From: an uncultured bacterium | GTDB taxonomy: Bacteria; Cyanobacteriota; Vampirovibrionia; Gastranaerophilales; Gastranaerophilaceae | DNA: 33,237 nt | Direction: 5' to 3' | Assembly: GCA_902777385.1 (NCBI GenBank) | Contig: CACYTP010000018.1 | Coordinates: 1 to 33,237, forward strand | Shown here: piece by piece, positions 8,062-33,217 of the stretch | How positions within the stretch are numbered: position 1 is the first letter of the stretch | Layout of the letters: every line of letters starts with the position of its first letter | Position numbers and translations under genes: made by a program | Notes under the pieces: generated by a model | Databases searched by the model: none | Told to the model about the DNA's origin: nothing | The model's input: only the letters and a program-made list of their open reading frames with translations

Positions 8062-8625
8062 ATGGCTATCAGAAATATATTAAAATACGGAACAAAATCG
8101 TTAAGAGAACCTTCAAAAGAAGTTCATAAGGTATCAAAAAAAATAACGGAATTAGTAAATGATTTATTGGAAACTATGTATTCTGCAAACGGTGTCGGAC
8201 TTGCAGCACCGCAAATAGGTGTAAATTACAGGGTATTCGTTCTTGATGTATCTTCAAATGATGAGCCTTTACGCCCAATGGTTTTCATAAATCCCAAGAT
8301 TATCAAAAAATCAGGTGCAATTATCAGCAACGAAGGCTGCCTAAGCTTTCCGGAAGCATATACTGATGTAAGAAGATATAAAAATGTAACAGTAAAAGCA
8401 CTGGATTCTCACGGGCGTCCGTTTGTTCTGGAAGCAAACGGAGGAACATTGCTAACCCGTTGTATTCAGCACGAATTTGATCATCTTGACGGAATTTTGT
8501 ATATAGACCACTGTATAAACAGATTTGAAACAAATGAAACACTTGCTAAATATAATCTGCCTCCGATTGAAGAAGATAAACTTCTTGAAGAACCTGAATT
8601 GGAGGAAGAATTAAAAAATGATTAA
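8062..8625 (+). CDS. def: Peptide deformylase
   Basis: This 187-residue enzyme removes the formyl group from the N-terminal methionine of new proteins. All three family motifs are intact: GVGLAAPQ (44-51), EGCLS (91-95, with metal ligand Cys93) and QHEFDH (136-141, with ligands His137 and His141 and catalytic Glu138). The C-terminal 20 residues are acidic. It overlaps fmt by 8 bp, so the deformylase and the formylating enzyme are translationally coupled. Confidence 0.97.
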   Translation: MAIRNILKYGTKSLREPSKEVHKVSKKITELVNDLLETMYSANGVGLAAPQIGVNYRVFVLDVSSNDEPLRPMVFINPKIIKKSGAIISNEGCLSFPEAYTDVRRYKNVTVKALDSHGRPFVLEANGGTLLTRCIQHEFDHLDGILYIDHCINRFETNETLAKYNLPPIEEDKLLEEPELEEELKND

Positions 8626-27634: not shown

Positions 27635-28066
27635 TTATACTTTCTCTACATATAATAATAAACTTTCAGATTTAATAATTTTAACCTCTGAGCCTTCCGG
27701 AATATCCTCAGCATCTTCAGTTGCAAGTCTTGCATCCCAGCGTTCCTCAAAAATAGTTACCGTACCTGAAGATTTTGTAATCGGCTCAACCACTTTTGCG
27801 ATTTTACCTATATACATGTTTTCAAGTTCTTCACTTTTTTGGTCAGCCTTGCGAGATTTCAATAACAGAGGTCTTATCAATAAGATAGAAAGCATAGATA
27901 AGACAACGAAGACTATTATTAAAGAATAGAAACTACACACAAAAAAGGATGTAATAGCCGTTAAAAAGCCGGCAACAGCGAAATTTAAGAAAAATCCGGA
28001 AGGAATCACTATTTCCAAAATTAACGCAACCAGACCGACTATGCCAAACATCTGCCAAAATTCCAT
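27635..28066 (-). CDS. NfeD-family membrane protein (short form)
   Basis: This 143-residue protein has membrane helices near residues 7-24 and 28-67, then a C-terminal OB-fold domain (about 80-143) with IGKIAKVVEPI and EVKIIKSESLLLYVEKV. It lacks the N-terminal protease domain of long NfeD proteins. Short NfeD proteins are paired with SPFH proteins and thought to bind them; here it precedes qmcA in one operon. AGGAG precedes the ATG. Confidence 0.88.
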   Translation of the reverse strand: MEFWQMFGIVGLVALILEIVIPSGFFLNFAVAGFLTAITSFFVCSFYSLIIVFVVLSMLSILLIRPLLLKSRKADQKSEELENMYIGKIAKVVEPITKSSGTVTIFEERWDARLATEDAEDIPEGSEVKIIKSESLLLYVEKV

Positions 28067-28133: not shown

Positions 28134-28200
28134 ATAACCTTTAAGATAATAACTGCCATTAATCATATTATAAAAGGAATTTCTAAAAGTTTATAAAAAA

Positions 28201-28232
28201 TCTTCCGTACATCAAATTTATAATACGGAGGA
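28201..28232 (+). promoter_or_regulatory. Hairpin that sequesters the ribosome binding site of the 53-codon gene
   Basis: TCTTCCGTA (28201-28209) pairs with TACGGAGGA (28224-28232) over nine positions, one of them a U-G wobble, with a 14-nt loop. The right arm contains the GGAGG that should initiate translation at 28241. The structure would hold translation off until melted or bound. The start of transcription is not clear from the sequence; a TATAAT at 28219-28224 would start the RNA inside the hairpin and remove the left arm. Confidence 0.5.
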
Positions 28233-28240
28233 AATAAAAC

Positions 28241-28402
28241 ATGGCAAGAATAATTGAAGGGGAAAGAAGAATAATCAAAATATCAACTGATGACGTAATT
28301 GCAATTGTCCGCAATTATCAACAAACAGCACAAAAGGCATGTTGTTATGAGCATTTAAGAGAATTACTGGACAAAACAGACTTTTACATACCTGAAGATT
28401 AG
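28241..28402 (+). CDS. Small conserved-looking protein, 53 residues
   Basis: ATG 28241 follows GGAGGAA at a spacing of 7 nt, the best binding site in the area, and the frame is open to TAG 28400-28402. The product begins MARIIEGERRIIKIS and ends KTDFYIPED. It has a short beta-like start, one amphipathic helix and a CC pair at 34-35. It has no signal peptide or membrane segment. It fills the gap between two minus-strand genes and stops 8 bp short of the end of glmU. Codon choice looks like its neighbours. I do not recognise a family. Confidence 0.7.
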   Translation: MARIIEGERRIIKISTDDVIAIVRNYQQTAQKACCYEHLRELLDKTDFYIPED

Positions 28403-28410
28403 CTAAAATC

Positions 28411-29688
28411 TTATTTAATTTTCTTCTTAACCCAATCTGTTAAAATTTTTAACGGGGAACGGGTTAATCCTAACGCCCATGCAGGAATATCCTTTGTAAC
28501 AACAGAACCTGCACCGATATTTGCACCTTCCTCAACAGTTACAGGAGCTACCAGAACGGTATTTGAACCTATTTTCACAGAATTTTTGAGAATAGTTTTA
28601 CTTTTTATTTTACTTAAAGGATCATAATTAGCTGTAATTGTTCCTGCACCGATATTGACCTGTTCACCAAGTTCACTGTCCCCAATGTATGACAGATGTC
28701 CTACATTGGTATTTGACTTGATATGAGATTTTTTAACTTCTACAAAATTACCAATCTTTACATTATCATCGACAACAACATCACCTCTTAAATGGGCACA
28801 TGGACCAATACTACATTTAGAACCGATTACATTCTTCCCTTCTATATAAGTAGCAGGATAAATAATCGTATCTTTACCTATTTGAGTATCCGCACTAATC
28901 CATGTAGAAGCAGGATCAACAATTGTTACGCCGTTGAACATTAGATTATTTAATACACGGTCAGTTAAATATCGTGCAGCCTGTGCAAGATTTAATCTTG
29001 AATTTATACCGTAAATTTCTTTGTTATCTTCAAGAATATAGGCATTTACATTTAGTAAATGCTTTTTACCCCATTCTATAATATCTGTTAAATAATACTC
29101 CCCTTGGGCATTATTACTTGTTAATTGAGAAAAAGCTGCTTTTATTTTACCCCAATTTAGGCAATAAATACCCGCATTAACTTCTTTTACGGCTTTTTGT
29201 TCAGGAGTTGCATCTTTTTCTTCAACAATACATTTTAAAGAATTATCGGCTTCCCTGATTATCCTTCCGTAATTTGTAGGATTATCGAACAAAGTACTCA
29301 TAACAGTTAAATCAGAATTTGTTGAATTATGATATTCAACAAACTTTCTAAGTGTTTCTTCAGTAATCAATGGGGTATCACCGCATAAAATCAAAACTAA
29401 CCCGTCATAGTTCTCTAAATTAGGACAAACCATAGAAACAGCATGACCGGTACCAAGCTGCGGAGACTGCAATACTGTTTTTGCATTATTATAATTAAGA
29501 TTTACAAATGCTTCGACCTCTTCAGCATGATGTCCGACAATAACAAAGTTTTCATCAGTTATATTTTTTACACTGTCCAATACATAACCTAATAAAGTCT
29601 TACCATAAATTTTATGCAAAACTTTCGGGGTATCTGATTTCATTCTTGTACCCTTACCTGCTGCCAATATAACCGATTTAATATTCAT
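28411..29688 (-). CDS. glmU: Bifunctional GlmU: N-acetylglucosamine-1-P uridyltransferase and glucosamine-1-P acetyltransferase
   Basis: I start at 29688 (425 residues) because GGGAG lies just upstream, and the longer frame to 29742 runs through the promoter. The enzyme makes UDP-GlcNAc for peptidoglycan and lipopolysaccharide. The N-terminal pyrophosphorylase has LAAGKGTRM (8-16) with PKVLH. The C-terminal half is a left-handed beta helix of hexapeptide repeats with HLRGD, the HLSYIGDSELG active-site segment and NIGAGTITANYD. The usual NYDG is NYDP here. The protein is about 25 residues shorter than the E. coli enzyme, mostly at the C-terminus. Confidence 0.95.
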   Translation of the reverse strand: MNIKSVILAAGKGTRMKSDTPKVLHKIYGKTLLGYVLDSVKNITDENFVIVGHHAEEVEAFVNLNYNNAKTVLQSPQLGTGHAVSMVCPNLENYDGLVLILCGDTPLITEETLRKFVEYHNSTNSDLTVMSTLFDNPTNYGRIIREADNSLKCIVEEKDATPEQKAVKEVNAGIYCLNWGKIKAAFSQLTSNNAQGEYYLTDIIEWGKKHLLNVNAYILEDNKEIYGINSRLNLAQAARYLTDRVLNNLMFNGVTIVDPASTWISADTQIGKDTIIYPATYIEGKNVIGSKCSIGPCAHLRGDVVVDDNVKIGNFVEVKKSHIKSNTNVGHLSYIGDSELGEQVNIGAGTITANYDPLSKIKSKTILKNSVKIGSNTVLVAPVTVEEGANIGAGSVVTKDIPAWALGLTRSPLKILTDWVKKKIK

Positions 29689-29710
29689 AACTAACACTCC
29701 CTTTTTCACG

Positions 29711-29739
29711 ATTATATGAAAAATAAAAAGGAACGTCAA
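29711..29739 (-). promoter_or_regulatory. Promoter of glmU
   Basis: On the minus strand TTGACG (29739-29734), a 17-bp spacer and a perfect TATAAT (29716-29711). It starts transcription near 29704, leaving about 16 nt of leader. Confidence 0.8.
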
Positions 29740-29740
29740 C

Positions 29741-29775
29741 AAAAAAGCCGTAATCGTTTTTGATTACGGCTTTTT
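29741..29775. terminator. Terminator after the response regulator gene
   Basis: GCCGTAATC (29747-29755) pairs with GATTACGGC (29762-29770) around GTTTTT, with six As on one side and five Ts on the other. In use it ends the minus-strand regulator gene just before the glmU promoter. Confidence 0.9.
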
Positions 29776-33160: not shown

Positions 33161-33195
33161 AAAAGAAAACAAAAGCCTAAAGATTTCATTTAATC

Positions 33196-33217
33196 TTCCG
33201 ATATATATAGTACGGAA
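33196..33217 (+). promoter_or_regulatory. Inverted repeat related to the 28201 hairpin
   Basis: TTCCG (33196-33200) and CGGAA (33213-33217) are separated by 12 nt. The left arm lies in AATCTTCCG, identical to the nine bases at 28199-28207, and the right arm in TACGGA, as at 28224-28229. ATG 33224 and AAGGG after it suggest that a gene begins at or beyond the window edge. Confidence 0.4.

Follow-up and report, generated by a model that had tools for sequence, protein, structure and literature searches.

The question raised by this locus is whether a short, unlisted open reading frame is a gene at all and, if so, whether its translation is governed by a hairpin that pairs its entire ribosome binding site. 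In the window (the whole stretch of 33,237 nucleotides analyzed here), a preliminary description had placed an unlisted 53-codon gene in an otherwise empty gap, and indeed this ATG-initiated frame, which lies on the forward strand and codes for 53 amino acids, is the only gene between an nfeD-like and a glmU-like gene (Table 1). The homologue search that the description had called for was positive in 152 of the 191 genomes of the same family, with one copy per genome. A profile search over a phylum-wide sample recovered the protein in 131 of 339 genomes, all except one in that family, and homologues were present in 131 stretches of GTDB-220 contigs. The titles of the homologue contigs correspond to “Candidatus Gastranaerophilales,” gut relatives of cyanobacteria. 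Across the alignment of homologues, the start, the stop, and the reading frame are all kept, differences at the third codon position predominate, and dN is far below dS wherever dS could be estimated (0.16 versus 1.45 between the window and the L003 homologue). Judged from its codons, the gene is under strong purifying selection, and the frame proposed earlier has turned out to be a real gene. The alternative, that positions 28241 to 28402 do not form a gene and that the region is merely a promoter or a spacer, could appeal to a frame that is short, unlisted, and without a family match, but it is already contradicted by the conserved start, stop, and frame and by the low dN, and we give it practically no credence. 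A scan of IMG/VR gave no relative of the protein and thus, within that collection, nothing to suggest a phage gene.

The product had been described as soluble, which agrees with the prediction of no membrane segment. In its predicted fold, two helices come after a beta-hairpin (mean pLDDT, 82). Neither Pfam, NCBIfam, nor PHROGs gave a convincing match to the protein or its relatives, and nothing exceeded the Pfam or NCBIfam cut-offs. Fold searches gave no clear match either (best Foldseek E value, 4.0; best VIA-align Z, 3.9), and this missing PDB fold match was not counted as evidence of a new fold. A PDB profile match to residues 55 to 92 of the T4 Dam methylase (E value, 0.003) was short and unsupported and was discarded. 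As far as the libraries searched show, the family is uncharacterized, and the kind of gene is one already known. A small-protein family, conserved across this gut cyanobacterial family, is added in this way.

Table 1. Features at and around the 53-aa gene (positions in the window)
Feature	Position	Strand	Basis or remark
nfeD-like gene	27635-28066	-	Divergent neighbor upstream of the 53-aa gene
Predicted sigma-28 -35 element AAAAGTTT (consensus TAAAGTTT)	28185-28192	+	Weight matrix, published consensus
Hairpin left arm TCTTCCGTA	28201-28209	+	Overlaps the -10 element; predicted untranscribed
Predicted sigma-28 -10 element TCCGTACA (consensus GCCGATAA)	28204-28211	+	Weight matrix; 11-nt spacer from the -35 element
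Predicted transcription start	~28217	+	~6 bp past the -10 octamer, inferred from aer spacing
Hairpin right arm TACGGAGGA, contains GGAGG (28227-28231)	28224-28232	+	No pairing in the fold that begins at 28218
53-aa conserved small protein gene (MARIIEGERRIIK...CCYEH...DFYIPED)	28241-28402	+	Homologues, dN/dS, structure prediction
glmU-like gene	28411-29742	-	Convergent neighbor downstream of the 53-aa gene

The regions upstream of the homologues share the motif AAAGTTT-N10-12-GCCGATA, which corresponds to the published consensus of the Escherichia coli FliA (sigma-28) promoter, TAAAGTTT-N11-GCCGATAA (PMC2859248). When 102 homologous upstreams other than that of the window were used to train a weight matrix, the site AAAAGTTT-N11-TCCGTACA obtained 17.2 bits (17.18), the top score in the 33 kb on both strands (runner-up, 11.9), and none of 2,000 shuffled versions of the window upstream reached this value. 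Among 116 distinct homologous upstreams, which come from related genomes so that the counts are not fully independent, 101 scored at least 10 bits (5 of 1,160 shuffles did), 85 matched the a priori E. coli consensus at 11 or more of its 14 positions (2.9% of shuffles), and 24 matched it perfectly (none among the shuffles). In the homologues, the sigma-28-like promoter is mostly found 17 to 37 nt ahead of the start codon. About 13% of them have no clear site of this type, and none scores in the single homologue that does not belong to the family. The genome itself codes for a FliA/WhiG sigma factor (TIGR02479, 242 bits against a cut-off of 189.6), and the same was found above the cut-off in all 75 good genomes of the family that were examined. 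A FliA/WhiG-type sigma factor gene was located at positions 8222 to 9073 of L102 (G000:C8). As in the E. coli FliA promoters (aer, tar, and tsr; PMC2859248, PMC4183435), the same two elements are found with the same spacing, the start codon lies shortly downstream, and a FliA-family sigma factor is present in the host genome. In contrast to them, the gene served here is an orphan coding for a small protein, the genome has no detected flagellin, and the -10 element is degenerate, TCCGTACA departing from the consensus GCCGATAA. We consider, with a probability of roughly 0.85, that the 53-aa gene is a stand-alone gene read from its own predicted FliA/sigma-28-type promoter.

At the E. coli aer promoter, transcription was measured to begin 6 bp past the -10 octamer (PMC2859248), and because this distance was applied to the octamer found here, the start is predicted at about 28217; the leader would therefore be 24 nt long and devoid of the left arm of the hairpin. 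Predicted leaders across 101 homologues are also short, mostly 12 to 32 nt. In computations that used 85 nt of upstream sequence, the accessibility of the binding site in the window was 0.94 from the predicted start versus 0.00 from position -60, and the RNA folded from 28218 (MFE, -0.1) leaves the site unpaired. The left arm shares six bases with the -10 element and ends before the predicted start. It would thus lie outside the predicted transcript, and control of such a sigma-28 transcript by the hairpin would therefore be impossible. In the mechanism that we propose, the FliA-type sigma factor would read the gene from the promoter at 28185 to 28211, transcription would begin near 28217 and yield a short, open leader, the GGAGG would remain unpaired in this short mRNA so that translation would proceed without hairpin control, and the small protein, with no predicted membrane segment, would be made alongside other sigma-28-controlled proteins.

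The preliminary description had favored control by the hairpin (a thermosensor, autoregulation, or a small RNA). According to this explanation, the transcript would come from upstream of 28201, and TCTTCCGTA would hide the GGAGG until the stem was opened by temperature, by the product, or by a small RNA. The nine-position stem reported there does exist and closes the whole site, in keeping with the accessibility of 0.00 from -60: eight Watson-Crick pairs and one G-U join the two arms around a loop of 14, and the stretch folds at -10.3 kcal/mol. However, the stretch folds more stably than average only to a degree that chance can account for (z-score, -1.86; 10 of 200 shuffles were equally stable), and when the binding site was kept and the part upstream shuffled, a stem of at least nine positions over the site appeared in 199 of 3,000 cases (6.6%). 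The comparative alignment suggested in the same description also argues against the switch, since the pairing is not kept in the relatives: members of the genus and those closest to it can form only 2 to 6 of the 9 pairs, 49.3% of the homologue cells are paired versus 47.6% after shuffling, and the covariation score of the stem is no higher than that of the control (0.151 versus 0.172 shuffled). Moreover, the left arm and the predicted -10 element share bases, the leaders predicted for the family are mostly too short to contain the stem, sigma-70-like sites do not exceed the level of chance in this region, and an Rfam scan of the whole window had a tRNA as its sole match, with none at 28201 to 28402. 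RNA thermometers of the fourU and ROSE types are comparable in that the stem here is able to pair the whole binding site, but they differ in that this stem is unconserved, its left arm is predicted to be untranscribed, and Rfam gave no match. A translational switch has, in our opinion, little chance of being the correct explanation.

A combination of both models could also be conceived, in which sigma-28 would produce the open, translated short mRNA and a longer transcript carrying the hairpin would be silent. The sequence of this single genome would allow either geometry, and the hairpin could be part of a longer mRNA if an unseen promoter lay further upstream. Nevertheless, the gene upstream is divergent, no promoter stands out in a search of the upstream region, and the stem is absent in the relatives, all of which leaves such a choice between promoters with very little chance. 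The hairpin is most likely a chance complementarity between a CCG-bearing -10 element and a CGGAGG binding site, as far as can be judged from sequence comparison. The idea of hairpin regulation, plausible as it was, is probably wrong. The description had also held that a transcription start at 28230 or later would exclude the left arm; the exclusion is predicted to hold, but that limit was too lax, as any start after 28209 suffices. In general, when one arm of a stem is a promoter element, the pairing of a ribosome binding site by the other arm should not be taken as evidence for riboregulation.

The exact consensus TAAAGTTTN10-12GCCGATA was found 32 times in 14 genomes of the family and not once with the reversed control. 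Downstream of these hits, there were proteins of 46 to 57 aa, a 174-aa family, a family of about 480 aa starting with MGMAASQARLL, and an HD_5 protein, a list of sigma-28 regulon members that was drawn from pattern hits only. Further proteins of 50 to 57 aa were seen directly after sigma-28-like sites in L085, L092, L097, L202, and L213, and those of L097, L202, and L213 resemble one family by eye. Proteins of about 270 to 480 aa with an MG(L/M)A(A)(S/G)Q(A/C)R start follow sigma-28-like promoters in L203, L206, L215, L219, and L229. One piece of them gave no match when searched against Pfam, and we regard these proteins as candidates for export. Within the window itself, a weaker sigma-28-like site (positions 33172 to 33205, 10.2 bits) lies right at the contig end; a possible ribosome binding site comes after it, and any gene there is truncated.

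What the small protein might do was approached through the flagellar genes. Homologues of FliE, FliF, FliH, and FlhA lie in a row in the same genome (L199, 4682-10830; G000:C1:225000-244000), and a Flagellin_N search of this genome gave no match. From its gene content, this appears to be a retained partial flagellar export block. According to an earlier study (Soo et al. 2014, PMC4040986), six of the nine genomes available at that time for the Gastranaerophilales had only a subset of flagellar genes. As a weak working guess, the 53-aa protein may be a substrate, a chaperone, or a regulator of this partial (FlhA) export apparatus, a link drawn from co-regulation and gene content only. More broadly, we tentatively suggest that the apparently nonflagellated Gastranaerophilaceae might have kept FliA and FlhA-type export as a repurposed secretion system, in which the 53-aa protein, acting as a substrate, a chaperone, or an anti-sigma factor, would be a conserved core member of the sigma-28 regulon and one of several small, unannotated proteins whose production would follow a common signal. 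Among the genera that have the protein are some in which FlhA scores in full, and it is missing from several genera with FliA, so that no tight partner was identified. As the sigma-28 regulon is apparently kept where flagellin was not found, the purpose of the retained flagellar export genes becomes testable.

The protein could also replace FlgM functionally as an anti-sigma factor that feeds back on FliA, a role that would be compatible with the sigma-28 promoter. Like FlgM, the protein is small and has its own predicted sigma-28-type promoter; it is present in one copy per genome, and FlgM was above the cut-off in none of 45 genomes (in the genome studied here, not even at an E value of 0.1). 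Against this role, it has no detected similarity to FlgM in sequence (no Pfam match to PF04316) or fold, it is absent from several FliA-bearing genera, and ORFs of about 110 aa with weak FlgM-like matches in several genomes suggest a separate, divergent FlgM. We therefore see this role as unlikely. Regarding the export genes, a second, partial FHIPEP-like ORF was observed at G000:C12:37668-38693 (L198 and L200), matching profile positions 310 to 653 with 161 bits within an open frame of 497 codons.
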